Source: Desulfurococcales archaeon
GTDB taxonomy: Archaea; Thermoproteota; Thermoprotei_A; Sulfolobales; NBVN01
Assembly (NCBI GenBank): GCA_026986255.1
Contig: JALSOX010000027.1
Location: forward strand, 1 to 26,854
Direction: 5' to 3'
Length of the DNA stretch: 26,854 nt
A program made the translations under genes and the position numbers. Below are positions 1 through 14,668 of the stretch, piece by piece (within the stretch, counting starts at the first letter, position 1; every line of letters starts with the position of its first letter). The notes under the pieces are model-generated. The model worked only from the letters and a program-made list of their open reading frames with translations, had not been told where the DNA came from and did no database searches.

Positions 1-2299
1 ACAGCGCTGGGACGCCGTCGAGAAGGTCAAGGGGAGGATGCTGTTCACGGCTGACTTCGCCAAGTACTACAGGAACGCAGTATTCGTCTACAGCGTCAGG
101 ACAAAGTACGCCCACGCGAGGATAAAGTCAATAGATGTTAGTGAGGCTAAGAGGTATCCTGGAGTCCTACGCGTAATAACAGCTAAGGACGTACCTGGAG
201 TCAATGACGTGGGTTATGTAATACCGGATCAGCCCTTACTTGCCAGGGATAAGGTAAGGTACGTAGGCGACATAATAGCCCTCATAGTTGCGGAGGATCC
301 CAACGTAGCTAGGGAGGCCGGCGAGCTAATTAAGGTAGACTATGAGAAACTACCCGTAATAACGGATCCGCTTCAAGTGGTTGACCTGAGGACGCTTAAG
401 GAGAAGGAGCACCCGCTAATCCACGAGGAGAGAGGTAGTGACGTAGTCGCGCACTTCAAAATAAGGAAGGGCGACGTTAAGAAGGCATTCAACGAGGCTG
501 ACGTGGTTGTTGAGGGAGAGTACAGCACCCCCTTCCAGGAGCACGCATACATGGAGCCGGAAGCCGCCATAGCGTTACCGGAGGCTGACGGAGGAGTAAC
601 CATAGTAGCAACCACTCAGTGCCCCTTCGATGTCAGGAAGGCCGTTGCTAAGGTGCTGGGAATAACTCAAAATAAGGTTAGGGTGATAGTGCCTGCGGTC
701 GGAGGAGGGTTCGGCGGTAAGGAGGACGTAGTTAACGAGCTAGGCGCGAAGGCAGCCCTAGCAGCATTAATGACAGGTAGGCCGGCGGTGGTAATACACA
801 GTAGAGAGGAGTCAATAATCGGTCACAGCAAGCGTCACCCGATGAGGGCATGGTATAGGCACGCGGCTAAGCGGGACGGGACGTTACTGGCTGTGGAGGC
901 TAACATAGTACTCGATACTGGGGCCTACGCGTCTCTAGGCCCGTTCGTAGCATGGAGGGCAACGGTTCACGCAACTGGGCCCTACAAGGTTAAGGCAGCT
1001 AGGATAGATACGCTCTCAGTATATACGAATAACGTTTACGCAGGGGCCTTCAGGGGTTTCGGGTGTCCGCAAGTAACGTTTGCTGTGGAGTCACAGATGG
1101 ATGCCCTAGCGGAGGAGCTAGGGATGGACCCTGTGGATCTTAGGCTAAAGAATATACTCAGGGAAGGTGACAGGACGGTGCATGGGCAACTCCTCACGAA
1201 GGATCACGGCGTTGGGCTGGAGGAAGCCATAGTGAAGGCTGTTAAAGCCTCTAAATGGTATGAGAAGAGAAAGTTATTCAGCAAGCAGTCGGGAACACTA
1301 AGGAAGGGTATAGGTATCACGCTACTATGGCACGGTAACTCAATAGGTGTTGAGGGAGCCGACTACTCCTCAGCCACCCTAATAATAAACAGGGACGGCT
1401 CAATAACGTTCAGGGTAGGCTTAATAGACATGGGTCAAGGATCGCAGTGGGGTATGGTCCTAATAGCGTCAGAAATCCTGGGTGTGCCGCCCTCATACTT
1501 CAGGGTTGAGCAACCGGACACAGCAGCAACCCCTGACTCAGGCCCGACAGTAGCGTCAAGAAGTACCGTGATGGGCGGCGCGGCAGTAGTGAATGCGGCG
1601 TACAAGCTCAGGCAGAGACTAAACAAAGTAGCCTCCACACTCCTCGGCTGCGACCCGGACGACGTGGAGATAAGGGCGCCTGACGTGTACTGCAGGTCAG
1701 ATCCAGAGAAGAAAGTGTCGTGGAGCGACGTGGTGGAGCAGAGCTTCTGGCTAGGAATACCGCTCCAAGAGTTCGGCTACTTCAGGGCCCCGCCGGCGGA
1801 GTGGGATGAGGAAACAGGTCAGGGAGCCCCGTACATAACCTACACGTTCGGAGCAATAATCGCTGAAGTAACAGTTGACTTGGAGACCGGTGGCGTTAAG
1901 GTCGACAGAATGGTGACAGCATATGATATAGGGAAGGTGATAAACAGGGTTGGCGTCGAGCTCCATGCTGAAGGCGGCGCGATACAGGGCCTAGGCTATG
2001 CGTTAATGGAGGAGGTAGTGCACAGCAAGGACGCGTACGTAATGAACGCGAACCTGTCAACATACTACATACCAACTATACATGACGTGCCTGACGAGAT
2101 AATACCGATATTTATCGAGGCAAAATACAGGAGAGGACCCTTCGGAGCTAAGGGCTTAGGTGAACCATCAATTAACGGCATAGCGCCAGCAATAGTGAAC
2201 GCTGTTAGCCACGCAACCGGGTTAAGGTTCCACAGCATACCGCTAACACCGGAGAAAGTCTACATGGCCCTAAAGAAAGCAGGTAAAACACCGTTCTAA
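1..2299 (+). CDS. Molybdenum hydroxylase large subunit (xanthine dehydrogenase/aldehyde oxidase family), 5'-truncated
   Basis: This is the molybdopterin-binding catalytic subunit of a xanthine dehydrogenase/aldehyde oxidase-type hydroxylase, which normally works with FAD and 2Fe-2S subunits. The frame is open from base 2, so the gene starts before the window. The residues before the first ATG (base 38) read RWDAVEKVKGR, the usual N-terminal family motif, so that ATG is internal. Counting from base 38, GGGFGGK lies at residues 222-228, the cofactor loop AFRGFG at 337-342, DMGQG near 470, and the C-terminal GAKGLGE with the catalytic Glu at 709. The AYxCSFR loop of form I CO dehydrogenase is absent, so CO oxidation is not supported and the substrate is unknown. 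The small and medium subunits are not in the window; they may lie upstream. Confidence 0.93.
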   Translation, partial: QRWDAVEKVKGRMLFTADFAKYYRNAVFVYSVRTKYAHARIKSIDVSEAKRYPGVLRVITAKDVPGVNDVGYVIPDQPLLARDKVRYVGDIIALIVAEDPNVAREAGELIKVDYEKLPVITDPLQVVDLRTLKEKEHPLIHEERGSDVVAHFKIRKGDVKKAFNEADVVVEGEYSTPFQEHAYMEPEAAIALPEADGGVTIVATTQCPFDVRKAVAKVLGITQNKVRVIVPAVGGGFGGKEDVVNELGAKAALAALMTGRPAVVIHSREESIIGHSKRHPMRAWYRHAAKRDGTLLAVEANIVLDTGAYASLGPFVAWRATVHATGPYKVKAARIDTLSVYTNNVYAGAFRGFGCPQVTFAVESQMDALAEELGMDPVDLRLKNILREGDRTVHGQLLTKDHGVGLEEAIVKAVKASKWYEKRKLFSKQSGTLRKGIGITLLWHGNSIGVEGADYSSATLIINRDGSITFRVGLIDMGQGSQWGMVLIASEILGVPPSYFRVEQPDTAATPDSGPTVASRSTVMGGAAVVNAAYKLRQRLNKVASTLLGCDPDDVEIRAPDVYCRSDPEKKVSWSDVVEQSFWLGIPLQEFGYFRAPPAEWDEETGQGAPYITYTFGAIIAEVTVDLETGGVKVDRMVTAYDIGKVINRVGVELHAEGGAIQGLGYALMEEVVHSKDAYVMNANLSTYYIPTIHDVPDEIIPIFIEAKYRRGPFGAKGLGEPSINGIAPAIVNAVSHATGLRFHSIPLTPEKVYMALKKAGKTPF

Positions 2300-2302
2300 G
2301 CA

Positions 2303-2316
2303 CACGTTTTTAACTT
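2303..2316 (+). promoter_or_regulatory. Putative TATA promoter of the 94-residue gene
   Basis: A T-rich box (cgtttttaactta) follows the hydroxylase stop codon and lies about 45 bases before the TTG start at 2361. Spacing suits an archaeal TATA box with a short leader. Seen by eye only. Confidence 0.4.
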
Positions 2317-2360
2317 AAAGCAATTGAGGAGCAGTTAATACTATATGGATGTGAAGGAAA

Positions 2361-2645
2361 TTGAAGGTCATTATTCGAAGAAACGAAATAACGATCGAGG
2401 GAATAGCCACACACATTACCGCCGAACTACTGACCAAGCAATTAAGCGAGTTACTAGAAACACGTGAAAGGAGGATAGCGTTCTTCTACGAGGGCGGGCC
2501 AGGGCCGTTAAACAGGGGGATGGTAATTAAGGTGAGGCTCTCCAAGAAATTAGGGGATAGTGACTTAGTAGCAGTGAAGAAGTTTTTCGAGGTTCGCGGG
2601 ATACCTGCTAAGGTGGTGACGCAGTCACCATCACTTCAAGATTAG
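2361..2645 (+). CDS. Small conserved-looking protein of unknown function (94 aa)
   Basis: I do not recognise this 94-residue protein. It begins with a TTG because the same frame has a TGA only nine bases upstream, so no earlier start exists; an ATG at 2345 is in another frame. The predicted chain alternates strand-like segments (VIIRRNEITIEGI) with helices (AELLTKQLSELLETRERR) and ends in a strand-helix-strand pattern, so a small alpha/beta fold is likely. There are no cysteines, signal peptide or membrane segments. It lies between the hydroxylase and the CBS-domain gene on the same strand and has its own likely promoter, so it need not act with either neighbour. Codon pattern matches nearby genes, which supports real coding. 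Confidence 0.6.
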   Translation: MKVIIRRNEITIEGIATHITAELLTKQLSELLETRERRIAFFYEGGPGPLNRGMVIKVRLSKKLGDSDLVAVKKFFEVRGIPAKVVTQSPSLQD

Positions 2646-2651
2646 TTGATG

Positions 2652-2695
2652 ACCACGTAAGCAATATTTCCACCTACTCTATCATTACGTGGTGA
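2652..2695 (+). promoter_or_regulatory. Hairpin overlapping the ribosome binding site of the CBS-domain gene
   Basis: ACCACGTAA (2652-2660) and TTACGTGGT (2685-2693) form a perfect 9-bp inverted repeat with a 24-base loop. The 3' arm overlaps GGTGA (2691-2695), a good archaeal SD site for the CBS gene, so folding would hide it. The loop also holds CCACCT, which is complementary to SD sequences. The regulatory role is inferred. Confidence 0.4.
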
Positions 2696-2701
2696 CCTTA
2701 G

Positions 2702-3133
2702 ACGGTCGAGAAACCCGCCCGCAAGTTAGTTATTAGGGTAAAGGATATCATGACTGCACCCGTAGTAACGGCAACTAAGGAGGTCCCCATAGAGGACGTG
2801 GCTAAGCTAATGTTCGATAACAGGATAGGTAGTGTCGTGATAGTGAATGATGAGGGGAGGATCGAGGGGATAGTGACGGAGCGGGACATGATTTACGCCA
2901 TAGCTAAGAACAAGGTAGGTAAGGGAATACCCGTCTACACAATAATGACGGAGAACCCTATAACGATAGACCCAGATGAACCACTCATAGATGCTGTCCG
3001 TAAGATGCGGGAGGCTAAGATAAGGCACCTTCCCGTAGTGAGGGACGGTGTGCCCGTAGGGATGGTTTCGTTGAGGGATATTATAGAGGTAATGGCATAT
3101 TTAGTTTCTGGGGGAGAGCACCTGGGAGGGTGA
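2702..3133 (+). CDS. Tandem CBS-domain protein
   Basis: This is a stand-alone pair of CBS domains, a fold that usually senses adenine nucleotides or S-adenosylmethionine. The first repeat spans KDIMTAPVVTA to VTERDMIYA and the second spans YTIMTENPITI to VSLRDIIEV. The first standard start is the ATG at 2750, but it lies inside the conserved KDIMT motif, and the frame stays open upstream to a TAG at 2699 with homologous-looking residues VEKPARKLVIRVKDI. No ATG, GTG or TTG exists in that stretch. An SD site GGTGA (2691-2695) stands six bases before ACG 2702, so I place the start there tentatively; the conservative gene is 2750-3133 (127 aa). One base separates its stop from the upp start, so the two are probably co-translated. 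Confidence 0.85.
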   Translation, partial: TVEKPARKLVIRVKDIMTAPVVTATKEVPIEDVAKLMFDNRIGSVVIVNDEGRIEGIVTERDMIYAIAKNKVGKGIPVYTIMTENPITIDPDEPLIDAVRKMREAKIRHLPVVRDGVPVGMVSLRDIIEVMAYLVSGGEHLGG

Positions 3134-3134
3134 C

Positions 3135-3806
3135 ATGGGTTTGAAGGTTAAGGTTCTGGATCATCCTTACATTCAAGCAATACTCACCGTACTAAGAAAT
3201 AAGGACACAAAACAGATAGAATTCAGAAAATCGCTTGTCAGAATGGGCAGGGCCTTCGGGTTGGAAATGATAAAGGACTTCGAAACCGAGGAGGTTTACG
3301 TTGAGACCCCCTTAGGGGTTAAGGCGAAGGGACTGAAGATAAAGGGTGTCGATAAGGTAGTGATAATAACGGTGCTACGCGCCGCATGGCCCATGGTTGA
3401 GGGCCTCATTAAGATATTCCCTCAAGCAAGGCAAGGAATAATATCCGCTAGAAGGGTTGAGGAGAAAGGCATGACGCCTAACGGACGATTCGACGTTGAG
3501 GTATCCTACGCGAGAATACCCAACATAAGTAGCGATGATACAGTAATACTGGTTGACCCGATGGTCGCCACGGGCTCAACAATGGAGACCATACTGAGGA
3601 AGGTCGTCGAGAAAGGGAAGGCAAGGAGGTACGCTATAGTGTCGGTTATAGCGACTCCCCACGCCATAGAAAGGCTATCTGAAGTGTGTGATGAGCTGGG
3701 GATAGACGCGGTGATGTATACGGCGTCAATAGATCCTAAACTAAACGATAAGGGCTACATAGTGCCTGGACTAGGCGATGCCGGTGATAGAGCCTTCGGC
3801 GGGTAA
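3135..3806 (+). CDS. upp: Uracil phosphoribosyltransferase
   Basis: This enzyme makes UMP from uracil and PRPP in pyrimidine salvage. At 223 residues it has the usual family length. The PRPP-binding loop VILVDPMVATGST spans residues 137-149, and the C-terminal uracil-binding motif YIVPGLGDAGDRAFG is intact. The N-terminal half contains VLRAAWPMVEGL, matching the family's VLRAG region. The start ATG is one base after the CBS-gene stop, and the SD site GGAGGGTGA overlaps that stop, which points to translational coupling. The pairing suggests that the CBS protein senses a nucleotide linked to salvage, but this is inference. No truncation or odd residues are seen. Confidence 0.95.
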   Translation: MGLKVKVLDHPYIQAILTVLRNKDTKQIEFRKSLVRMGRAFGLEMIKDFETEEVYVETPLGVKAKGLKIKGVDKVVIITVLRAAWPMVEGLIKIFPQARQGIISARRVEEKGMTPNGRFDVEVSYARIPNISSDDTVILVDPMVATGSTMETILRKVVEKGKARRYAIVSVIATPHAIERLSEVCDELGIDAVMYTASIDPKLNDKGYIVPGLGDAGDRAFGG

Positions 3807-3849
3807 GGAAATTAATAAAACCCTCATTACCGGATCGGGGAAGTACTCG

Positions 3850-3867
3850 GTTAAAAATTTTTAAATA
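3850..3867 (+). promoter_or_regulatory. Strong TATA promoter of the KaiC-like gene
   Basis: The run ttaaaaatttttaaataaag after the upp gene includes TTTTTAAATA, a near-ideal archaeal TATA box. Transcription should begin about 25 bases later, near 3890, giving a short leader before ATG 3917. Confidence 0.65.
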
Positions 3868-3916
3868 AAGGTTAACCTCAGTAAACGGATTCCCGTACCG
3901 GGTGATGGGTATTAGT

Positions 3917-5341
3917 ATGAGTAAAGCACTAAGATGGTGCATACCAGGCTTAGACGACGAGTTAGGGGAAATACGGCCGGGAACCTTAATAGTGCTCTTG
4001 GGACACCCCGGCGCCGGCAAGACAACGCTTGCCTCCAAGATGGTATCCTGCAACATAGGCAGGCTTGGTATTAAAGTGGTCTACTTCAGCACGTCCGAAA
4101 CTAAGGAGAAGTACTTCACGTACATGGAGAACCTAGGTTTGAGGCTTAAGGACTTCGAGAGTAAGGGGTTGCTGAAGTTTATTGAACTACCGACATTCTC
4201 AGGAGAAATGGCGTGTGATGTGTTCGTTGATATACTTACCCGCACCGTTACGGAGGAGGATCCAGACTTAGTAGTGATAGACAGTGTAACACCGATACTC
4301 TGGTACCTCAAGGACGACCCGTCCCGTCGATCCTTCCTACATGCCGGAATATATAAGGTAGTCTCTGAACTCCGTAAGACCATGATATTAATAGGTGACC
4401 TACCCTACGGCAAGGAACGCGTTGACTTAGGCGGCATAGAGTTCGTTGCTGACGTGGTGTTAGTGGCAAAGCTGCTTAGCGAACGCGGGAGACCCACGCG
4501 GAGGCTTGAGGTAAGGAAGTTCAGGGGAAGGAGCGTAAGGGTAAGTGAGTTCCCATTCGCCATTGTGGAGGGGGTAGGGATAAAGGTAGTGAAGCCCCCG
4601 CATACATGGAGCCCTAAACATAAGGTTCGATCCAAGCTAACGATACTTGATGGTGACCCCCTAAGCAGGGTGATAGGCCCGATATTCAGGGGTGAGCAGG
4701 TACTAGTGACGTATCCCGTGGGATCCGGTGTTTCGTTGAGGTTCGCAACCGTAGTTGCGCGTAGGGCGGTTAGGGATAAACTGAAATTGCTGTTAGTGAC
4801 GAGCTCATCCTCGGCCGAGCTCATCAACGCATACATATACTCCGCGTTGAGGGCGCTTGGCGAGGACTGCTCCAAGAAGGACTTTAGTAAGTATGTGAAG
4901 GTACATGTTCAAGACCTATTCACGATGTCGGTTACGGAGCTCATGGGTAGAACCTTAGTAGTGAGTGAGGAATATGACCCTGACATAGTGTTGGTGTTGG
5001 ATGTGGCTGTCGAGAGGGACGTACTGTGGCAGAATGTGGAGCTATTCAATCAAATGAATTACGCGTTCGTATCGATAGACAGATCCAATGGAATAGTAAC
5101 CTTTAGGCTATTCGGAACCCGCGGAGGCGACATTAGGGAGGCGGGACTCCTCGCGGAAATGAGTGACGTGGTCATGCAGGTAATGCCTCGATCATGCTGT
5201 GAGTACTCTGTGAAGGTTATTAAGAATCCTTTCAGGAAGCCAAGCCCGTCAGCGATCCAGGAGCTGGAGAGGGAGCTCAACTCAGTAGCTCCTCATGCTG
5301 AGGAGTTCATCCGAAACCTCTCAGGGATGGGGGACAGCTAG
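3917..5341 (+). CDS. KaiC-like RecA-superfamily ATPase with a degenerate second domain
   Basis: This is a two-domain KaiC/RadA-like P-loop protein of unknown role. Numbered from ATG 3917, the first domain has a clean Walker A GHPGAGKTT at residues 29-37 and a Walker B-like DLVVIDS. The second domain begins near residue 240; its P-loop position reads YPVGSGVSL, without the Lys and Thr/Ser needed for ATP hydrolysis, although a hydrophobic strand ending in Asp (IVLVLD) remains. The frame is open from GTG 3902 and ATG 3905, but GGTGATG at 3901-3907 looks like the SD site for ATG 3917, so I chose that start. Its stop overlaps that of the convergent gene through the palindrome CTAG. Possible roles include signalling or regulation of motility; none is shown here. 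Confidence 0.85.
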   Translation: MSKALRWCIPGLDDELGEIRPGTLIVLLGHPGAGKTTLASKMVSCNIGRLGIKVVYFSTSETKEKYFTYMENLGLRLKDFESKGLLKFIELPTFSGEMACDVFVDILTRTVTEEDPDLVVIDSVTPILWYLKDDPSRRSFLHAGIYKVVSELRKTMILIGDLPYGKERVDLGGIEFVADVVLVAKLLSERGRPTRRLEVRKFRGRSVRVSEFPFAIVEGVGIKVVKPPHTWSPKHKVRSKLTILDGDPLSRVIGPIFRGEQVLVTYPVGSGVSLRFATVVARRAVRDKLKLLLVTSSSSAELINAYIYSALRALGEDCSKKDFSKYVKVHVQDLFTMSVTELMGRTLVVSEEYDPDIVLVLDVAVERDVLWQNVELFNQMNYAFVSIDRSNGIVTFRLFGTRGGDIREAGLLAEMSDVVMQVMPRSCCEYSVKVIKNPFRKPSPSAIQELERELNSVAPHAEEFIRNLSGMGDS

Positions 5342-6438
5342 ACCACCGCATTAAGTACTCTGTAAAGTAACTCCTCATAAGCACTCCGCGGTAGCCCGTC
5401 AACCATAACCTTGGGCGCGCCGGTAACGCCGTCTACAGCCCCACTAGATACTGCGGACTTCAAGCACAGTATCTCATCGCTGACCGAATGCGCGTAATTT
5501 AACTTACCGAGCAACTTAAGTAGGAGTAACTCCATGGCGTAAGCACCTACGTTCGAAATCACTGACGTTACTAGGTAATCAACAGTGGAACTCGCGGCTA
5601 TGCCGCCCCTGCAGGGACATCTGCAAGCGTTGCCGTAAGGCACTACCCTCCTAACGGTATCCTCAATAACGCCCATACCAACCTCATTTCCTCCATCACC
5701 AACAGATATCGTGATGGCGTCGTAGGTTCTGGCGACATTCATGACTTCCTCGACGTGCGAGTGATGTTGTGAGACGTCGATCCCTTTCATGGAGTGATAC
5801 ACCCCCAAGTAGTTGTGTCCAGCCTTCTCCACAAACACTATTGCTGAAGGTGGCAGGTCACTGAATATTTCTGTAAGGTCACCCCTAGTTAGGGGGTACG
5901 CCGTCCTCAGGGTAAGCACGGGGATCCACGCATTACGTAGACTGCGCACGCTAAGAGAGCATCCTCCTGTGAATGCGGGTTTTAAACCAGCCGCTCTTAA
6001 AGACTCCCCAGTTACGCGGATTAAGTCTGTCCGTTCGTCAATTATCAAGGCAGTAGCTACGCCAAGCCTCTTCAAAGCCCTGGCAAGGAATACTGCCCCA
6101 GTAACCCCATCCGTTTCCTGCACGTACTTCGGAGGTGTGGCGAAACCGAATGAAATGAAGATCACGTCAGCCCTACGGCTCTGTATGATGTCTGCGAGAG
6201 TTTCGCATACCAGTAGGAGCGGGTTAACACCGTACTTGCTGGTGACGGCTTCACAGAGGTCACCTACCACCCCTCGCTTGTTAATGTCCGCACATATGAT
6301 ATCACGTAACTTGCTGGCTAGGCCCACGATGCTCAGACGCGTTCCCCTGTTATGGTTCTCCCAAGGTAAAAATATTGTCTTACGTTGTGTGGTGCTCGCA
6401 TTGAATATTCTTCTGATGTTTTTCTCATAATGTAGCAT
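5338..6438 (-). CDS. DUF4392 family protein, D-glutamate cyclase-like
   Basis: This 366-residue protein resembles the DUF4392 family, whose mammalian member is D-glutamate cyclase (D-glutamate to 5-oxo-D-proline). Matching features are the TDGVTGAVFLARALKRLG segment, VFVEKAGHNYLGVYHSMKG, and the glycine-rich ISVGDGGNEVGMGVIED motif that marks the family. The C-terminal part contains CRCPCRGG, a cysteine cluster that could bind a metal and that I do not associate with the mammalian enzyme. The start ATG has an AT-rich box about 50 bases upstream, shared with the divergent gene. The substrate in archaea is uncertain. The assignment rests on remembered motifs rather than a search. Confidence 0.8.
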   Translation of the reverse strand: MLHYEKNIRRIFNASTTQRKTIFLPWENHNRGTRLSIVGLASKLRDIICADINKRGVVGDLCEAVTSKYGVNPLLLVCETLADIIQSRRADVIFISFGFATPPKYVQETDGVTGAVFLARALKRLGVATALIIDERTDLIRVTGESLRAAGLKPAFTGGCSLSVRSLRNAWIPVLTLRTAYPLTRGDLTEIFSDLPPSAIVFVEKAGHNYLGVYHSMKGIDVSQHHSHVEEVMNVARTYDAITISVGDGGNEVGMGVIEDTVRRVVPYGNACRCPCRGGIAASSTVDYLVTSVISNVGAYAMELLLLKLLGKLNYAHSVSDEILCLKSAVSSGAVDGVTGAPKVMVDGLPRSAYEELLYRVLNAVV

Positions 6439-7621: not shown

Positions 7622-8386
7622 ATGATACCGGTACTAATAGTGATCGGCGCGTTCGGAATAGGGTTTATCTCAGCCATTGCTGGGATAGGTGGGGGGAGCT
7701 TACTAGTACCGTTCCTTGTCCTAGCCCTCGGTTACAACGTTAAAGTCGCGATAGCGACCAGCCTTATGTGTATAGTTGTCACGTCATCCTCAGCCTCCAG
7801 CGAGTACCTTAGACGCGGACTAGTGGACATGGGCACGGCGCTACTGCTGGAACCCCTCACGGCGTTGGGGGCGATAACAGGTGCTTACATAACACTAACG
7901 CTACCAGCAAATGTCCTTAAGATAGCCCTTGGGGCCCTATTCCTGTATATATCAGCTGAGACTATATGGAAGGCGCTTCACGAAAGAAAGGGAGGCGTAG
8001 AGGTTCCCGGGAGCGTAACGGCTCTCCGCAAAGCGGTGGGTTCTACCCTCTCATTCATGGCGGGACTAGCCTCCGGAGTCTTCGGGATAGGTGGGGGCGT
8101 GATTAAGGTACCCATAATGACATACATTATGAAGCTCCCAATAAAGACGGCAGTGGCGACAAGCTCCTTCATGGTTGGCCTCACAGCAGCTAGTGGAGAG
8201 ATAGTCTACCTAACGAAGAACCTCACGGATCCCCTAACAGCGACGTTGCTCTCCGTAGGCATAATACCCGGCGCCATCCTCGGTGCGAAGTGCCTAAAGA
8301 AAACAAAGCCAAAATACGTGAGGATAGTGTTCGGCGCGGTACTACTGTACGCATCACTAAGACTACTCACATCGATAACCCCATAA
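7622..8386 (+). CDS. TauE/SafE family membrane exporter
   Basis: This 254-residue membrane protein belongs to the TauE/SafE (formerly DUF81) family, proposed to export sulfite, sulfonates or related anions. It opens with the family's glycine-rich pattern GIGFISAIAGIGGGSLLVPFL, and the repeat of this motif in the second half (GLASGVFGIGGGVIKVPIM) shows the internal two-fold duplication. About eight hydrophobic spans are visible. An ATG at 7617 reads only ATG-AAA-TGA, so the start at 7622 is used. Fourteen bases after its stop lies a DUF1634 gene, a known neighbour of this family. The transported substrate cannot be read from the sequence. Confidence 0.9.
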   Translation: MIPVLIVIGAFGIGFISAIAGIGGGSLLVPFLVLALGYNVKVAIATSLMCIVVTSSSASSEYLRRGLVDMGTALLLEPLTALGAITGAYITLTLPANVLKIALGALFLYISAETIWKALHERKGGVEVPGSVTALRKAVGSTLSFMAGLASGVFGIGGGVIKVPIMTYIMKLPIKTAVATSSFMVGLTAASGEIVYLTKNLTDPLTATLLSVGIIPGAILGAKCLKKTKPKYVRIVFGAVLLYASLRLLTSITP

Positions 8387-8399
8387 TAGGCGGGGAACC

Positions 8400-8672
8400 A
8401 TGAAGTACGAAACACCATCACTAATCCTAAGATACGGCACAATCACTGGACTAATAATAGCGATACTAGGGGAAGTACTAACAACAATAAAACCCACACT
8501 CAAACCACTAACATATTACGGACTAGGAATAATAATAGCAACACCCATAACGTCACTAACAGCGATAGCCGCCATACATGCAATCAAGCACGACCTAAAA
8601 ACATTCACACTAGCAGCACTCGCACTAGCGATAATGCTCACAACAATAGTCGTTATGCTAATAAAACCATAA
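8400..8672 (+). CDS. DUF1634 membrane protein, partner of the TauE/SafE exporter
   Basis: This is a 90-residue protein with three hydrophobic spans: residues 12-28 (TGLIIAILGEVLTTI), 38-60 (YYGLGIIIATPITSLTAIAAI) and 70-88. Size, topology and position directly after a TauE/SafE gene fit DUF1634, a family usually found in this pairing and thought to assist the exporter. The SD-like GGCGGGGA is just before the ATG. The coding strand is unusually rich in A and C and poor in T, which sets it apart from its neighbour and may reflect its membrane composition or a different history. The function remains undefined. Confidence 0.8.
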   Translation: MKYETPSLILRYGTITGLIIAILGEVLTTIKPTLKPLTYYGLGIIIATPITSLTAIAAIHAIKHDLKTFTLAALALAIMLTTIVVMLIKP

Positions 8673-9126
8673 CAAAACATCATGGAGCACACAAAATATC
8701 TTCGCGACCCTAACCTCACATTAAGGCGCTGTAGCGCATCCCCTCAAGGACATAACGTCATTCAACTTAAAACACAATAAATCTTCGAAATTGATGCGGC
8801 ACTCAAATGATTGGAAGTTTACCACGCATATTGCCAGTAGCTGTTTGACTAAATCACTCTTTAGTCCTTCAAACTTAGTCCTTCCAAGCAAGTGAAGTCC
8901 TAGGCTAACGCATGTTTAAAGCAGTAGCGCTCCTCCCTGAAAACCTGAATCAATTACGGTTCTACCTCAACGTTTTTATCGCCTATAGGATTGTACAGCA
9001 CTATCTTAACTATCGGGGATCTGAACTCGGAACCTCTGGTTTAGGGAGGTGGAAAGCCTCATCAGATGTTCCTTTTAGCCCTAAGTCATCACCGGAATCA
9101 GATACTACTCTGATATTTAGGGAGTC
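8673..9126. other. Intergenic region without a convincing gene
   Basis: About 450 bases with no gene I can support. An open frame at 8912-9154 (80 codons) runs over the promoter of the next gene and has no protein-like pattern. Visible structure: a direct repeat TTAGTCCTTC at 8861-8870 and 8875-8884; a T-rich box near 8971-8980; a short hairpin ACCTC/GAGGT around 9031-9050; and the inverted repeat listed separately at 9097-9114. A small RNA is possible but unproven. Confidence 0.5.
9097..9114. promoter_or_regulatory. Inverted repeat, possible operator
   Basis: ATCAGA (9097-9102) and TCTGAT (9109-9114) form a 6-bp inverted repeat with a six-base spacer, ending about 14 bases before the TATA region of the exported-protein genes. 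This position suits a regulator binding upstream of the transcription factor B site. The role is inferred. Confidence 0.35.
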
Positions 9127-9146
9127 AATATATATACATTTATACC
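9127..9146 (+). promoter_or_regulatory. TATA promoter of the exported-protein genes
   Basis: The run caatatatatacatttata is a clear archaeal TATA region. Transcription would begin near 9157-9165, which favours ATG 9169 over ATG 9151 as the start of the following gene. Confidence 0.65.
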
Positions 9147-9168
9147 AATTATGAGAAACGGGGATTCT

Positions 9169-9864
9169 ATGCGGAAAGTGGTAGTACTCGCATTAGTATT
9201 CGTGCTCACGCCTTTACTTTTGGTATCTATGTTTACAGCGAGTAAAACCAACATAAGCTATACGGCGCCACCAGATAAGTTGAAAGACTCCGGCTATCAT
9301 GATGCGGCACTTACTCATTTTAAGGTGCTTGTGGTTGGTCTTAGCAATAACCTAGTGTCCGCGTTAAGGCTCAATGGGTTTAACATATCATCGCATCCAA
9401 GGAGCTGGGACACTATCTCCCTAAGTCATGTAGATGCCCTTATAGTAGGGCTTGATAGTAGCTACAGCGTTAAAGAGAAGGATGTTATCGTAAAATTGGG
9501 TAAAAGTCTTCTTAATAGTGGGAAGACCATAGCGTTCGTATCGAAGGCAGGTACGGATCCTAGGCACTTAGCGGAATACTTAAGTAAGATAATAAAAAAC
9601 CAGGTAGTACTAAAGAATGTTGTGAGCGGTCTAAATGAAAGAGCATGTACGACTGTCGTAAAGCCTGGTAATAAGGGCATAATAAGGACGTGTTCGTCAG
9701 GTGAGAAGATATATGTGTTCATAATTAGGCTTGTTGGCAAAAGACATGATGCCCCCGTAATCTACGTTCTAAGCAGTGATAATGACATTAGAATTAGTTC
9801 TGTTTATGTACAAAAGTGGTTTATAAAGAGCCTCTGGGAGGCGTTGGGTAGAGAGGGGTGTTAG
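9169..9864 (+). CDS. Membrane-anchored or secreted protein of unknown function
   Basis: I do not recognise the family. From ATG 9169 the product has 231 residues. The start MRKVVVLALVFVLTPLLLVS is a signal peptide or membrane anchor, so the rest should face outside the cell. The body has a Rossmann-like flow of strands and helices (HFKVLVVGLSNNLVSALRLNG; VDALIVGLDSSYSVKEKDVIVKLGKSLLNSGKTIAFVSK), similar in style to flavodoxin or class I amidotransferase-like domains but without a catalytic motif. Two cysteines in the second half (RACTTV, IRTCSS) could form a disulfide. ATG 9151 is in frame but lies at or before the expected transcription start. A strong SD site at its 3' end serves the next gene, so the two form a unit. 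Confidence 0.65.
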   Translation: MRKVVVLALVFVLTPLLLVSMFTASKTNISYTAPPDKLKDSGYHDAALTHFKVLVVGLSNNLVSALRLNGFNISSHPRSWDTISLSHVDALIVGLDSSYSVKEKDVIVKLGKSLLNSGKTIAFVSKAGTDPRHLAEYLSKIIKNQVVLKNVVSGLNERACTTVVKPGNKGIIRTCSSGEKIYVFIIRLVGKRHDAPVIYVLSSDNDIRISSVYVQKWFIKSLWEALGREGC

Positions 9865-9869
9865 AGCAG

Positions 9870-10612
9870 ATGAGGAGCCATGTAGTTATGGGTGCTTTGC
9901 CTATTATTATTGCTCCTCATCTTATTAATGATTGCTCCTCAACAAGTTGCATACGCAGAGGTTAGTGTTAGGAATTAGGAATATGGAGCTCTACCAGCAG
10001 TGGGTCAGGACGCACGTTTACGGTGACGGTAACGTACTGAGCCATACTGTCGAATGGTATTATGCGAAGGGATACGTCTCTGGTAGTCCAAGATATTACT
10101 GGGCAGTTTACGTAAGAATCATTCCAGATGCAGCACCAAGCAGTAATGATGAGAAATGGTATGTGCATGATTTTAAGGCTACCTTCAAAGACTTAAGCGG
10201 TTCTCTTTCAGTGTATGATATTAATCCCGGTAATCCCCTTGGCTGTGTTAATTCGTGGAGCGGCGGCGTAAGCGCATCTGCAAGTATGAGTCCAGATGGT
10301 CCTACCGTGAACATAGGTATATCGTACACGGTTAGCGGGAATTTCTACAGTCTTTCCGTGGAGCCTAAGGGTACGTACCCGAAGACATTGTGGGTCTACA
10401 AGCCCTGTAGCATCGTGTACGATAGTGCATGGAAAGCTGGGTCAGCGGCCATGTATGTGGCGACATCTTCTACCGCCATTAAAGTGGAGAATCATGTAGG
10501 CGCTACGTACTATGAGGATGTGAAAGAGTGCTTCCTATTCTACTGCTGGTGGAGTCTAAAAGAAATACATGGCCACGAGCATGTTTGGTACGTTACTCTA
10601 AGTCCGCCATGA
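9870..10612 (+). pseudogene. Exported protein of unknown function, apparently frameshifted near its start
   Basis: An intact frame runs from about 9932 to 10612 (226 codons), but it has no convincing start and no signal peptide. Just upstream, frame 1 encodes an excellent signal sequence, LLLLLLILLMIAPQQVAYA followed by EVSVRN, and then stops at 9976. Removing one T near 9974-9976 joins it to RNMELYQQW in the main frame. A strong SD site GAGGGGTG (9853-9860) stands nine bases before ATG 9870, which opens MRSHVV in frame 0; one further single-base shift near 9885-9890 would link it to the signal sequence. GTG 9892 is an alternative start needing only one shift. The body is rich in Tyr, Trp, Ser and Gly and looks beta-rich, with four or five cysteines. 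This is either a decayed gene, sequencing errors, or recoding. Confidence 0.6.
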
Positions 10613-10869
10613 TGTAGTAACCTAACCTTACATTTATTTAAGCTGATAAGCATTACTCTCAGGGGGAAGCTAGGTTAGAGGACTTCCCGTTGCAATAATT
10701 ATCAGGCATAAGCTTTTTTTGGATGTTAATCTTTAATGACATTTAGCGTCATAAAACTGCTAAAGGTTTTTATAGACGTAATCTCGATGATCGAGGAATT
10801 AGCCAGTGTTCTTCAAAGTCTCCGGTACAAGTTCTTTTGTGCTTGCAAAGAAGGCTTCATGAAACTTCT
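10613..10869. other. Intergenic region left of the integrated element
   Basis: No gene is supported. CTAACCT (10622-10628) and AGGTTAG could pair across about 40 bases, followed by a T run. A T-rich box near 10766-10775 precedes a 34-codon open frame (10787-10891) that ends inside the half-tRNA; it could be chance or a remnant. Confidence 0.4.
10711..10720 (+). terminator. Oligo-T terminator
   Basis: Seven T residues (10714-10720) about 100 bases after the exported-protein genes form a typical archaeal oligo-T termination signal on the plus strand. Confidence 0.45.
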
Positions 10870-10914
10870 TGGTGCGGCGGCCGGGATTTGAACCCGGGAT
10901 CTCCGGCTTGGGGG
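10870..10914. repeat. Left attachment site (orphan 3' half of tRNA-Gly)
   Basis: These 45 bases are identical to 13759-13803. They contain CCA, the 3' acceptor strand, the T arm, the variable region, the 3' anticodon stem and the anticodon loop from C32, but the 5' half of a tRNA is missing. Confidence 0.92.
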
Positions 10915-10921
10915 ATCAGAA

Positions 10922-11024
10922 AGATATGCATGTATTCATATCGCTTGATATGAAAGGTCTTCTGAGGTGATAGTCAACGAGGATAGTTATAGAGGCTATT
11001 ACCTAATGTCTGATATGAAAGGTT
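10922..11024 (+). repeat. Left cluster of TGATATGAAAGGT repeats
   Basis: Two exact copies of TGATATGAAAGGT lie at 10946-10958 and 11011-11023. A partial copy (gatatgca, from 10923) and an inverted core TTCATATC (10935-10942) lie nearer to the attachment site. The same motif clusters at the right end, so these are candidate recombinase arm sites. Confidence 0.7.
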
Positions 11025-11051
11025 ATGGTACCTATCCTAATCTACTAGTGC

Positions 11052-12089
11052 TCACTCTATCCTTATTCTGCCTACGTAAAGTTTCATTCTAGGAGTATCT
11101 CTATACCTACCTTCATACACATGCTCTACTGTAATGGGCTTTATATTCATTGCTTTAAGCTCGTTTTCTAGGAGTATCCTTAAGGCTCTTGCAGCTACTA
11201 CGTTCTTCCCTGCTGCAAGGATGTAGATGTTTCTGATACCGCGGTACTTCTCCAACACATGTTTTACGTAGCATATATGAGGTTCTAGCATAGCCTCGAT
11301 CTTCTCGGGGCGTGCTACTAGAACAAATGCTATCCTTATGTACTTACCGTATATAACTGGTTCCTCAATTTCTTCGCCTCTAGCAAGCTTATACAGCATT
11401 TTGATTAGTTCAAGAACTTCATTGTCTATTGATGGATCTCGGTGTGGGTACCGTAGCTTAGCCACCTCGACCATCTCCGGTATTAGGATTCTGGAGAGTA
11501 GTGATCTATCGTCTATCTCGACGATCATCGATGTAAGTTTGCGGAGGTTCTCGTCGCTTTCTGTTAATGTGTCTATGACTTCGTTGATGGCCGTGACAAT
11601 GGGCTGATACTCCTTAGCGATACTCCTAGCTACGTGAGCTGATAAACAGTTGAGGAGCTTGCTATCGTACACCGCTTTCATCTCTGGTGCTAATAGATCC
11701 GGTATCGCTGTTACCAGCGCTCTAGCGATGTTCTCGTATCGATTCCTCCTACCACTCTTCAATACTATAACGAGTCTACCCGCTTTTAGATTCATAACTG
11801 CTCTATCTTCATCACCCCACTCAACAACTATCTCTGGAACCTCCTCAACAGCGAAGTTCTTGGTGAAGCCGCTCTCTATTAGATGTCTAACCTCCCTGCT
11901 TATAGCGCTCTTCTCAAACCGTTTACTAGCCCACGACAATGTCCAAGATATGTGAATAGCTATTCTTTCAAACCTCTCGGGTTTCTGTATGTAGAGAAAT
12001 AGGATTACTAGAAGAATGAAAGAGATTGGTCCAAGGAAACTCCATATGTTTCTCCAAAGCTCTATCAGTTGGCTAACAGCTTCAGTCAT
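11052..12089 (-). CDS. Single-pass membrane protein of unknown family (element cargo)
   Basis: I do not recognise this 345-residue protein. One hydrophobic span lies near residues 14-36 (NIWSFLGPISFILLVILFLYI), followed by a basic stretch, so the large C-terminal part is probably cytosolic. Next come strand-like segments (EIVVEW, RLVIVLKSGRR), a helical middle (residues about 120-240), and a final alpha/beta region (IRIAFVLVARPEKI; IRNIYILAAGKNVVAARALRILLE). No catalytic motif is obvious. The ATG at 12089 has GAGAGGAG about ten bases upstream. It starts 32 bases after the zinc-ribbon gene on the same strand, so the two form a unit. A membrane effector in a defence or toxin system is a possible role, inferred only from topology and setting. 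Confidence 0.65.
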   Translation of the reverse strand: MTEAVSQLIELWRNIWSFLGPISFILLVILFLYIQKPERFERIAIHISWTLSWASKRFEKSAISREVRHLIESGFTKNFAVEEVPEIVVEWGDEDRAVMNLKAGRLVIVLKSGRRNRYENIARALVTAIPDLLAPEMKAVYDSKLLNCLSAHVARSIAKEYQPIVTAINEVIDTLTESDENLRKLTSMIVEIDDRSLLSRILIPEMVEVAKLRYPHRDPSIDNEVLELIKMLYKLARGEEIEEPVIYGKYIRIAFVLVARPEKIEAMLEPHICYVKHVLEKYRGIRNIYILAAGKNVVAARALRILLENELKAMNIKPITVEHVYEGRYRDTPRMKLYVGRIRIE

Positions 12090-12121
12090 TCTCTACGGCT
12101 CCTCTCTAGGGGTCTAAACCC

Positions 12122-12406
12122 CTACCTACTAGCTACAGCTACTTGCTGTTTCTCCTTGGACAAGAGTGCTACTCTAACTATACAGCTAGGTTTATCACAT
12201 ACTAGAACGGGTTTCCCATCAACCATGAGGATCCCACCTATGTTATCCAAAGTTATCTTTCTCCCACAGATGAAGCACTTAGCCTTACCACTAACAACAT
12301 CGTCGTATAGATTAAGCTTACGTAGTAGCCCAGCTACTTCATCAGTACTGATGGCAGTTACTGGTATCCTCCTCTTAACAACATTCTTCATCACAATCAC
12401 ATCCAA
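12122..12406 (-). CDS. Small zinc-ribbon protein (element cargo)
   Basis: The product has up to 94 residues and contains CFICGRKI followed about 24 residues later by CDKPSC. The C-x2-C and C-x4-C pairs should bind one zinc ion, as in small archaeal zinc-ribbon proteins that bind nucleic acid or mediate contacts. The N-terminal third is a helix-rich segment (TDEVAGLLRKLNLYDDVVSG). The longest frame begins at TTG 12406; ATG 12391 is an alternative with GGATGTGAT before it. A TATA-like tattaata lies near 12429-12436, so transcription of this gene and the membrane protein gene probably starts here. Its job is unknown; it may regulate or partner the downstream membrane protein. Confidence 0.65.
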   Translation of the reverse strand: MDVIVMKNVVKRRIPVTAISTDEVAGLLRKLNLYDDVVSGKAKCFICGRKITLDNIGGILMVDGKPVLVCDKPSCIVRVALLSKEKQQVAVASR

Positions 12407-12425
12407 GAAACTATATGTAAACCTA

Positions 12426-12440
12426 GATATTAATACTAGC
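12426..12440 (-). promoter_or_regulatory. Putative promoter of the zinc-ribbon/membrane protein unit
   Basis: The box tattaata on the minus strand, upstream of the zinc-ribbon gene, is placed to start transcription around 12405-12410. Confidence 0.4.
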
Positions 12441-12590
12441 GCTCTCTAGATACGAGAACCCTGCTAATACCTTTCCGCCCTCCTAAGTGTTCATAAGCTT
12501 CGGAGACTTAAGACCTCTTAACTAGTATCCTTAAGGAATCTTAAAATAAAGATTAGCAACAAATAGCTAAGCTTCTTATTACGTAGACTA

Positions 12591-13505
12591 TTAGAGCTTT
12601 GGTGGATAGAATATCCAAGGTGTTCTTATACCCTCACTGTTCCAGAACTCTATGCTTCTCAGTATGCGCTCTCTAGCCTTAAAGTACTTATCATAAGGTA
12701 CTTCATGTAGGAGTATAAGTGTGACCAAGTTTATTATAGTTGCATTCATTGTAGGCCAGAATCTCTCTCCATGTATGAGGATGTTTCTCCATTCATCAAT
12801 GAACTTGAACATATATGCACCCTTATCAACTCCATACACTCCTCTACACAAATTACAGAACTTCTCCAAATTCTTCCTAAGATCTGTCGAAGCATACTCC
12901 TTGTAGAATAAGTAAAGTAAGTGGCCAACACGATTTATTCTCTTACGATCCTTTCCATATTTTATAACTCTATTTCCTAGCGGAACCTCGAACTGCTTAC
13001 GAACAGTGCCATCCACATCTACATGATCCTCACACATAGTCTTCAACATCCTCTCTAGGAGTGGGAAGGCTAAGTGAGCAGATACTATGAAATCCTTTGC
13101 AAAAACATCACTAAGTTCAGGAAAAATAGACGTGATTTGAGCAATGGGTAGGAGGTTTACACGAAATACAAGGTTCATTTGATTAAGAAGCTCCACATCC
13201 CGTTTCAAGAACGCAAGTTCATCTTTTAGTTCATTAACCAATTGTATAGTCCAAGCCCATAAATACTTGTGGTCATGATTAACATTCTGAGCCTTATGTG
13301 TTTTTACAAGTAGTACAGGTAACTCCCTCAATATCTCAAGCGGAATATCATGAATATTATAATGTTGAACTATTAGGTACTTTGACTCGCAAGAAGTGGT
13401 ATTGATAGCCACATAATTACTCTTACTATCTGCTTTAATCCTGCTTTCACCCTTCATCCAACACTCCACGTAGTTATCTATCAATTTCTTGATCTCGACC
13501 AACAT
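12591..13505 (-). CDS. HEPN-like protein with RX4H motif (element cargo)
   Basis: This is a 304-residue, mostly helical protein. Near residue 240 it reads FIDEWRNILIHGERFW. R-N-I-L-I-H matches the RX4H signature of HEPN RNases, including the usual Asn after the Arg, and the motif lies in a run of helices (YMFKFIDEWRNILIHGE; NATIINLVTLILLHEV) as in HEPN domains. Such domains cut RNA in toxin-antitoxin, abortive infection and CRISPR effectors. The N-terminal half has no recognised domain; there is no signal peptide or membrane span. ATG 13505 is 35-45 bases from an AT-rich minus-strand box (13540-13550). The gene is separated from the other cargo genes by about 185 bases and has its own promoter. 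The HEPN call is motif-based and tentative; no antitoxin is obvious. Confidence 0.7.
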   Translation of the reverse strand: MLVEIKKLIDNYVECWMKGESRIKADSKSNYVAINTTSCESKYLIVQHYNIHDIPLEILRELPVLLVKTHKAQNVNHDHKYLWAWTIQLVNELKDELAFLKRDVELLNQMNLVFRVNLLPIAQITSIFPELSDVFAKDFIVSAHLAFPLLERMLKTMCEDHVDVDGTVRKQFEVPLGNRVIKYGKDRKRINRVGHLLYLFYKEYASTDLRKNLEKFCNLCRGVYGVDKGAYMFKFIDEWRNILIHGERFWPTMNATIINLVTLILLHEVPYDKYFKARERILRSIEFWNSEGIRTPWIFYPPKL

Positions 13506-13539
13506 ATTGCATCAAACCTGTATCCACTCTAATTACATC

Positions 13540-13550
13540 GTTTAAAATAG
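13540..13550 (-). promoter_or_regulatory. TATA promoter of the HEPN-like gene
   Basis: CTATTTTAAAC on the minus strand lies 35-45 bases before ATG 13505, which suits transcription from about 13518 with a short leader. Confidence 0.5.
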
Positions 13551-13658
13551 TATGGTATATCACGTCGGTTAGTCAGCACGAGCATATATTGGAGTTCCTC
13601 GATAGTTCTATTGAACTCCTGACCTCAGTAGAGTAGTATCAGAATCGAATATTTATGC

Positions 13659-13738
13659 TGATATGAAAGGTGGAAAATGGTGATATGAAAGGTGCTCTCC
13701 CGATATGCAAGGAGGTACATGAGCTGATATGAATGTAG
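13659..13738 (+). repeat. Right cluster of TGATATGAAAGGT repeats
   Basis: Exact copies of TGATATGAAAGGTG lie at 13659-13672 and 13681-13694. Degenerate copies follow at 13701-13714 (cgatatgcaaggag) and 13725-13738 (tgatatgaatgtag). The steps are 22, 20 and 24 bases, about two helical turns each. The cluster ends 21 bases before the right attachment site. It matches the left cluster. Confidence 0.75.
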
Positions 13739-13758
13739 AACATCAGTTGATGTAGGAG

Positions 13759-13803
13759 TGGTGCGGCGGCCGGGATTTGAACCCGGGATCTCCGGCTTGG
13801 GGG
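13759..13803. repeat. Right attachment site inside tRNA-Gly
   Basis: This is the intact copy of the 45-bp direct repeat. Its outer end falls at C32 in the tRNA-Gly anticodon loop, a common crossover point for archaeal integrases. Confidence 0.92.
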
Positions 13804-13837
13804 GCCGGCGTCCTAGACCAGGCTAGACGACCGCCGC
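13759..13837 (-). tRNA. tRNA-Gly (anticodon CCC)
   Basis: This is an intron-less 76-base tRNA (13762-13837) plus an encoded CCA (13759-13761). The acceptor stem GCGGCGG pairs with CCGCCGC and the discriminator is A. The D stem is GTCT/GGAC, the anticodon stem CCGGC/GCCGG, and the T stem CCGGG/CCCGG with loop TTCAAAT. The seven-base anticodon loop is CCCCCAA, so the anticodon is CCC and position 33 is C instead of the near-universal U. It decodes GGG glycine codons. Its 3' half is the integration site of the neighbouring element, which restores the gene on insertion. A TATA box (CTTATAAG) lies 26-33 bases upstream. Confidence 0.93.
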
Positions 13838-13862
13838 GCCATGATTTTTGTTTGGGGTGGGG

Positions 13863-13870
13863 CTTATAAG
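13863..13870 (-). promoter_or_regulatory. TATA promoter of tRNA-Gly
   Basis: CTTATAAG on the minus strand is 26-33 bases before the mature 5' end of the tRNA, immediately after the GGGP synthase stop. Confidence 0.65.
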
Positions 13871-13876
13871 TTCTAG

Positions 13877-14668
13877 TTATTTTCTCTTTATTGATTTTAT
13901 GATTTCCACGCATTTTTCAGGGTCTTTCTCCACTATTGTTCCGGTCACTATTATGTCCGCGCCTGCTTTCGCGGCGGCTTTGGCTTTCTCGGGTGACCTT
14001 ATCCCTCCTCCGACTATGAGTGTTAGGTTCTTCTTTACTTTGGCTGCGTGTCTTATGAAGGCTGGCGGTATCGGTTCCGGTGCTCCTGATCCTGCTTCGA
14101 GGTATGCGTATTTCATCCCCATCATCCTGGCTGCTAGTACGTATGCTGCCCCTATTTCGGGTCTGTCGTAGGGTATTGGCCTCGCTCTCCCAACGTACCC
14201 TGCCGCGCCACCGTACCCGACTATTATGTAGGCTGTGGGTAGGGCTTCTAGTCCGTATCTTTCTATTATTGGTGCTCCGAGTACCTGCGCGCCTACGATG
14301 AAGTATGGGTCGTCTGAGTTTAGGAGTGAGAGGAATAGTATGGCGTCAGCGAGCTTGGATATGCCGGTGATGTTCCCCGGGAACAGTATGATCGGGACCC
14401 CCAAGCCCTTAAGTTCCTGAACCACGGCATCTACGAATCTTTCTGAGACCCCTACGGATCCGCCGATGAGGAACGCGTCCGTTCCTGCCTCGACCATGGA
14501 CTTACCCAGCTTACGCAAGTTCTTTAACGCTTCCCCGTAAGCCTTGTCAGGATCTATTAGCGTGAAGTGTAGCGTGCCTTCCTCAGCTATCTTGTTGATG
14601 ATGTAGTCATGCACTGATGACCAGTTACTCCGTGCCTCCCTCAACGCTTTCCTCCTCGGGAGTCTCAT
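13877..14668 (-). CDS. Geranylgeranylglyceryl phosphate synthase
   Basis: This enzyme joins geranylgeranyl diphosphate to sn-glycerol-1-phosphate, the first committed step of archaeal ether lipid synthesis. The (beta/alpha)8 signature motifs are present: FTLIDPDK, YLEAGSGAPEP, LIVGGGIRSPEKA and DIIVTGTIVE. The longest frame is 263 residues and overlaps the upstream Elf1-like gene by 44 bases. Three starts are possible: ATG 14668 (GAGGTGA three bases upstream), TTG 14644 (GAGGAGG six bases upstream) and GTG 14614, which gives MHDYIINK, closest to typical family N-termini. I list the longest. The gene is last in a minus-strand cluster with PINA, the SWIM protein and the Elf1-like factor. Confidence 0.94.
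   Translation of the reverse strand: MRLPRRKALREARSNWSSVHDYIINKIAEEGTLHFTLIDPDKAYGEALKNLRKLGKSMVEAGTDAFLIGGSVGVSERFVDAVVQELKGLGVPIILFPGNITGISKLADAILFLSLLNSDDPYFIVGAQVLGAPIIERYGLEALPTAYIIVGYGGAAGYVGRARPIPYDRPEIGAAYVLAARMMGMKYAYLEAGSGAPEPIPPAFIRHAAKVKKNLTLIVGGGIRSPEKAKAAAKAGADIIVTGTIVEKDPEKCVEIIKSIKRK

Follow-up and report, generated by a model that had tools for sequence, protein, structure and literature searches.

Elements of the SSV type, which encode a suicidal integrase (PF16795), insert into the 3′ half of a tRNA gene and leave an intact tRNA and a displaced half, and we observe the same arrangement at the tRNA-Gly(CCC) gene of a 26,854-nucleotide contig from a Desulfurococcales archaeon (assembly GCA_026986255.1, contig JALSOX010000027.1), the whole of which we refer to as the window. 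The integrated element at this site, which we term unit B, is preceded by a probable older unit, termed unit A. An SSV-type integrase fragment is present at the same tRNA-Gly site in a close relative (G165), whereas the units of the window contain no detected integrase or integrase fragment, and are far smaller than SSV-type viruses and plasmids. In bacteria, the cis-mobilizable elements (CIMEs) of integrative and conjugative element families are att-flanked, lack an integrase, often occur in tandem and are thought to be moved by the recombinase of a related element. The window units and their counterparts in other archaea are likewise att-flanked and without integrase, but differ from CIMEs in their archaeal host, in a recurrent gene pair, in a cargo of toxin-antitoxin, restriction-modification, CRISPR-type or HEPN genes, and in that no conjugative relative was seen. 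Integron cassettes are also tandem units with varied cargo and common recombination ends, some with toxin-antitoxin genes; unlike these, the units described here target a tRNA gene and carry several genes each, and neither a resident integrase nor an attI platform was found.

Within the archaea, the smallest cryptic integrated element of Thaumarchaeota given in an excerpt of PMC6563490 is 2.6 kb and has an integrase; our units resemble these elements, as described there, in being small with genes of mostly unknown function, but no integrase was found in them and they belong to a different phylum-level group. A passage of a 2021 review (PMC8371274) describes several integrated archaeal elements without an integrase, which was presumably lost after integration, and states that tandem integration occurs and that related elements can serve fragmented integrases, and a passage of PMC3718332 describes remnants at tRNA genes as common in Sulfolobus. 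Our searches of open-licence papers yielded no account of the gene pair described below, or of trans-mobilised mini-elements of this kind, although one may nonetheless exist. Our analysis makes it fairly likely that positions 10870–13758 are an integrative element that is not autonomous and owes its insertion to an integrase supplied in trans. The observations behind this reading are the att structure, the sites that are empty or hold other units in relatives, the lack of a detectable integrase, and the repeats at both ends.

The tRNA-Gly(CCC) site in the window and in close relatives

The site consists of the following features:

13759–13837, minus strand: intact tRNA-Gly(CCC), the target (ARAGORN; Rfam tRNA, 60.5 bits; repeat comparison)
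13759–13803, minus strand: att copy forming the 3′ half of the intact tRNA-Gly (repeat comparison)
10870–10914, minus strand: orphan, displaced tRNA-Gly 3′ half, the other att copy (45/45 identical to 13759–13803)
10870–13758, no strand: unit B, integrated element of 2,889 bp (repeat spacing, low GC, absence from G163 and G161)

A preliminary description of this DNA had reported a perfect 45-bp direct repeat bracketing three genes, with one copy in an intact tRNA-Gly and the other an orphan, and all of this holds. The two copies are 100% identical (45/45 nt) and 2889 bp apart, a complete tRNA is found by ARAGORN and Rfam at the second copy only, and our search of 8001–14500 found the tRNA-Gly 5′ half only at the intact gene, with none near 10870–10914. 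The 45 bp extend from the anticodon of tRNA-Gly to its encoded CCA, and identity over this span is expected where a tyrosine recombinase has used the 3′ half of a tRNA gene (compare PMC8371274). The DNA between the copies (10915–13758) has a GC content of 40.4%, compared to a mean of 50.1% (sd 2.3%, minimum 45.5%) in 324 flanking windows of equal length.

Relatives were chosen using the neighboring gene pcrB, for which 199 of the 229 genomes of the class searched gave a match. The four closest by PcrB protein (87–94% identical; G163, G161, G162 and G165) have loci collinear with the window, and an empty tRNA-Gly site, with a single tRNA-Gly copy, is present in two of them. Alignment of the window with G163 stops at 8679 and restarts at 13753, and with G161 stops at 8734 and restarts at 13751, with at most about 107 bp unaligned between the single tRNA-Gly and the next gene. 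The preliminary description gave 2.9 kb and overlooked that the block missing from the empty-site relatives measures ~5.0 kb (from 8680 or 8735 to 13750 or 13752). An intact tRNA, an identical displaced 3′ half and empty sites in relatives are the features of a tRNA-targeted integrative element of the tyrosine-recombinase type, and this locus has all three.

The other two relatives contain different units at this site. In the sister species G162, an orphan half and an intact tRNA lie 1,264 bp apart; the left end of this unit is 77.6% identical to 10869–11171 of the window, extending into the 3′ end of the 345-aa gene of unit B. As cargo the unit carries a TumE toxin (PF20126, E 3e-14) and a 102-aa neighbor with no family match above the cut-off. 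In G165, the att copies are 3,075 bp apart, and the unit contains a broken archaeal integrase next to the orphan half (Phage_integr_3, E 5.6e-13), interrupted by one internal stop, the two pieces of which match a PHROG integrase (E 2.8e-5 and 6.2e-10), in addition to a PaREP1/HEPN protein (E 6.7e-29; L105:11551–12048). This integrase may be cleanly split between the two ends of the unit, but only one part, that at the orphan half, has support: the 92-aa piece next to the intact tRNA matches nothing in Pfam or PHROGs, and the weak integrase matches there (E 0.016 and 0.041) overlap the tRNA half itself. One 45-nt site is thus occupied differently in the window, G162 and G165, so that at least three different units have used it. 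The half-tRNAs of all three are letter-identical over 45 nt while their flanks diverge by ~10–17% (10–15% between the window and G162), which favors separate, recent insertions, although the intact tRNA could also have kept the halves identical through gene conversion. We also observed in G165 (L105 reversed, 1370–5588) ~4.2 kb left of the orphan half that is missing in the window, with peptidase-like and transporter-like open reading frames (ORFs); this stretch may be another, older unit, since it is similar to the G162 unit at the right end.

No integrase was found among the three proteins of unit B using Pfam, PHROGs and NCBIfam, and tblastn with 20 ORFs from archaeal integrase matches found none at E ≤ 0.05 in unit A, unit B, G162 or G085, in agreement with the preliminary description of the element as integrase-less. 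The G165 unit served as a positive control for this search (4.6e-53). Units A and B thus lack a detectable integrase, intact or split, of the kind that an autonomous SSV-type element encodes. Marginal tblastn matches were seen in G114 (0.042) and G052 (0.013 and 0.047), and G142 has a weak N-terminal integrase match (E 3e-4) just past its first orphan half, probably a remnant in its second unit.

The preliminary description overlooked the probable decayed end of a third half-tRNA at 8791, probable unit A and the recurrence of a gene pair from unit B in other genomes. In the window, the original tRNA flank, aligned with three relatives, runs to about 8790 and diverges after a decamer at 8791, where the window reads TTGATGCGGC and the tRNA 3′ end of the relatives reads TGGTGCGGC or TTGGTGCGGC. 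This remnant is short (ten bases) and its placement rests on synteny. An older unit A, its outer half-tRNA decayed and its inner half being the orphan copy at 10870, is probably located to the left of unit B:

8791–8800, minus strand: probable decayed end of the older half-tRNA (TTGATGCGGC; relatives TTGGTGCGGC), from alignment with three relatives and position
about 8801–10869, no strand: unit A, probable older unit (absent from G163 and G161; GC 42.8%)
8912–9154, plus strand: ORF of 80 aa, no Pfam match
9151–9864, plus strand: ORF of 237 aa, secreted-looking, no Pfam match
9932–10612, plus strand: ORF of 226 aa, secreted-looking, no Pfam match

Repeats at the ends of the units

A 13-bp repeat, TGATATGAAAGGT, is present beside both att copies:

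10946–10958, plus strand: exact TGATATGAAAGGT repeat, left end
11011–11023, plus strand: exact TGATATGAAAGGT repeat, left end
13659–13671, plus strand: exact TGATATGAAAGGT repeat, right end
13681–13693, plus strand: exact TGATATGAAAGGT repeat, right end
13701–13713, plus strand: degenerate repeat (3 mismatches) continuing the right-hand series
13725–13737, plus strand: degenerate repeat (3 mismatches) continuing the right-hand series

The four exact sites, two beside each att copy, are the only ones in the window, and allowing up to 2 mismatches adds none; shuffled sequences at this tolerance gave a mean of 0.73 sites, with four reached in 1 of 100 shuffles. The degenerate repeats prolong the right-hand series at 20- and 24-bp spacing, and five further sites with 3 mismatches are scattered elsewhere in the window. 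A copy with one mismatch occurs at the equivalent position in G162, in both units of G142 the displaced half is directly preceded by related motifs, CATATC or ATATCA (a likeness judged by eye), and the ends of the G165 unit share other short repeats (GAGTTAACTACA-like).

At a different tRNA gene, an intron-bearing tRNA-Thr(TGT), both units of G114 and the unit of G052 contain, just inside the displaced half, GTTTCA, then ~15–25 nt, TGAAAC and TATTTrTAyTCTCT or a close variant (by eye); these units have right-end motifs in common and different cargo. Conserved cis ends in units of different cargo are therefore found both in G114 and G052 and at the left ends of the window and G162 units. From these comparisons, the ends look like the mobile part of the units, and the TGATATGAAAGGT repeats are likely cis sites for a recombinase or accessory factor.

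Cargo of unit B and a recurrent gene pair

The att copies enclose three larger ORFs, all on the minus strand and encoding 345, 94 and 304 aa:

11052–12089, minus strand: 345-aa protein with a hydrophobic N-terminal helix (by reading) and a C-terminal Alba-like fold
12122–12406, minus strand: 94-aa protein resembling a zinc ribbon (cysteine pattern by reading), whose gene is the conserved neighbor of the 345-aa gene
12591–13505, minus strand: 304-aa protein, probable HEPN-type (R240-N241-x3-H245)

The C-terminal domain of the 345-aa protein has the fold that defines the Alba superfamily, and Alba folds bind nucleic acid. In the 304-aa family, R240, N241 and H245 are invariant in 8 of 8 sequences, and these residues fit the HEPN motif, Rx4-6H with a polar residue after the R (PMC3710099), so that the protein is probably of HEPN type. 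PADLOC matched none of five proteins. The cargo of unit B, consisting of a membrane Alba-like protein, its zinc-ribbon partner and the HEPN-type protein, is probably a defence or toxin-like load. We take the Alba/zinc-ribbon pair to be cargo, together with the toxins, nucleases and restriction genes of other units, because the units share ends and not genes.

The 345-aa family is present in 8 of the 229 class genomes, and a phylum sample of 398 gave seven matches, comprising two already counted, three new (G238, G395 and G420; the G395 copy has one internal stop) and two weak partial ones, in G551 (E 1.2e-4) and G253 (E 5.3e-4), which were left out of the count. The total stands at 12 carriers including the window. 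For the 304-aa family, the 229 genomes gave only one weak match (G011, 47 residues), also left out. The zinc-ribbon gene adjoins the 345-aa gene in 10 of the 12 carriers, in varied order and orientation; the G123 copy is a fragment cut by the end of its contig. For the remaining two (G142 and G420) the contig begins within the 345-aa gene, leaving one side unreadable. This analysis brings to light a widespread, unannotated pair of a membrane Alba-like protein and a zinc ribbon. A gene of the PaREP1 family, which is HEPN-related, adjoins the pair in G001 (L001:7307–7618).

In 4 of the 12 carriers, namely the window, G114, G052 and G142, the island is delimited by orphan tRNA halves. For example, the array in G114 (L020:6019–10296; G114:C73) begins with the intron-bearing tRNA-Thr(TGT) (L020:6019–6128, by reading, with no ARAGORN call), and two orphan halves, with 100% and 92% identity over 49 nt, mark off units in tandem that measure 1,161 and 3,007 bp; the 5′ half is present once only. 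Both units have toxin-antitoxin genes of the PIN type: unit 1 contains nothing but an AF2212-like gene paired with a PIN gene, unit 2 contains UPF0175 and DUF3368 genes in addition to the Alba/zinc-ribbon pair, and another PIN gene follows the last half-tRNA. In G052 (L021:1817–15228; G052:C8), an orphan half 43/48 identical, without a 5′ half, lies 13.3 kb from a tRNA called Pro by ARAGORN and read by letters as the same intron-bearing tRNA-Thr(TGT), and the 13.3-kb island encodes a RAMP (CRISPR-type) protein, a type I restriction subunit, a specificity subunit and the pair. In G142, two orphan halves are identical over 42 bp, and the first closes the unit that contains the 345-aa-family gene; a matching intact tRNA was not retrieved. 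The 6.2-kb unit between these halves (L019:1077–7300; G142:C2) contains phosphoesterase-like ORFs (by reading) and the weak integrase match.

Two further carriers have the gene near a tRNA without a demonstrated orphan half: in G085 the pair is 433 bp from an intact tRNA-Gly(CCC), and in G395 a tRNA 3′ end lies at the contig end. A candidate decayed half-tRNA in G085 (L016, about 2114–2158), convincing by eye, was rejected, as its ungapped identity of 23/45 compares with a regional best of 24, reached by 2 of 100 shuffles, and an apparently orphan T-arm in L016 (6372–6399) seems by reading to be part of a long-intron tRNA. As a control, 26 PcrB loci (89,979 bases), a convenience sample and not a random one, contained 12 T-arms in complete tRNAs and no orphan.

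Origin of the units

Integrase-less archaeal insertions are commonly ascribed to gene loss. We prefer a trans-mobilised element to such a plain remnant, and the preliminary description, which had allowed for either, was right as far as it went, with the helper not identified. An integrase supplied from elsewhere is favored because several separate bracketed units are without a detectable integrase. A tyrosine recombinase from another element would have recombined the att copy of the unit with the 3′ half of tRNA-Gly(CCC), which would have rebuilt the tRNA gene and pushed the native half away; the TGATATGAAAGGT repeats flanking att would have acted as the cis sites in this reaction, and unit B would have entered next to an older unit at the same site. 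Of the 31 genomes in the window's family, 9 match PF16795 (eight over the cut-off, with two matches in G165), so that helpers circulate among relatives, and among the 11 carrier genomes PF16795 and PF00589 are each present in 8. An uninterrupted ORF on G165 contig C110 (L139) is a candidate tyrosine integrase from this archaeal family. Several results weigh against mobilisation in trans. No helper is tied to unit B, and no excised circle was seen, there being no reads to search; PF16795 was found in neither G161 nor G162 and only once, below the cut-off, in G163; G114 and G420 contain neither PF16795 nor PF00589; and the G165 integrase is probably not the direct helper, because the end repeats of its unit differ. 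Outside the window, the 31 family genomes contain exact TGATATGAAAGGT at just two sites, one in G162 and the other in G171; neither fetched stretch of 3 kb includes a tRNA, and we rejected these single sites as a means of identifying the helper. In addition, no tRNA half is present in the sequence read for 6 of the 12 carriers of the 345-aa family; four of these (G001, G420, G019 and G123) are at contig ends or on contigs <5 kb, but G002 and G238 lack one over 13 and 19.5 kb, where contig ends are no explanation.

In the account based on loss, which is the main rival, the site would have received a larger, integrase-encoding plasmid or virus that then shed the integrase and most of its genes, leaving cargo between the att copies. 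Loss is what PMC8371274, in the passage on such elements, presumes, and decay does occur here, as seen in the broken integrase at the same site in G165, the weak N-terminal integrase-like match in G142 (E 3e-4) and the G162 unit, which retains only part of the 345-aa gene. The perfect att copies, three intact ORFs and repeats at both ends of unit B argue against a remnant, which would also require traceless loss of an integrase from units A and B and the G162 and G114 units, where matches are marginal or none, and we regard this origin as possible but rather unlikely. It is improbable that the Alba/zinc-ribbon pair is instead a mobility or maintenance module, e.g., a tether or segregation factor acting on the end repeats: the pair is kept together in 10 of 12 carriers despite varied order and orientation, and its Alba fold would suit such a role, but bracketed units without the full pair occur (G114 unit 1, G162 and, judging by its ORFs as read, G142 unit 2), and G002 and G238 have the pair with no visible tRNA half. 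The short segmental duplication independent of the intervening genes, which had been named as the alternative that could refute an integrated element, has only the repeat itself in its favor; a chance duplication is not sensible because of the anticodon and CCA borders and the single tRNA-Gly at the syntenic site in two relatives, and with the other occupants of the site in relatives and the low GC between the copies also against it, we consider it highly improbable.

We propose tentatively, and with some doubt, that hyperthermophilic Thermoproteota contain undescribed integrase-less, tRNA-bounded mini-elements that stack cassette-like at tRNA-Gly(CCC), tRNA-Thr(TGT) and another tRNA, are moved in trans by way of motifs conserved at their ends, and carry genes from host to host: those for toxin-antitoxin, restriction, CRISPR-type and HEPN functions, along with a new module of membrane Alba-like protein and zinc ribbon. 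If this is true, preserved ends, separate insertions, and shared ends with different cargo would mark trans-mobilised mini-elements that form a slow toxin and defence cassette system at tRNA genes, for which the window supplies a specific att site together with a cis motif.

Known viruses and plasmids were rejected as the source of the units for want of matches: the 345-aa and 304-aa proteins have no tblastn match in 50,697 phage and 72,556 plasmid records and none in IMG/VR using peptide-pattern scans, the 226-aa protein of unit A has no relative in IMG/VR (pattern scan), and the doubled repeat has no exact match there either. A homologue of the 345-aa protein, P0001, also of 345 aa and 91% identical, has as its longest contig one of 2,836 bp, near the 2,889 bp of unit B, and this contig might be a free circular form of the unit.

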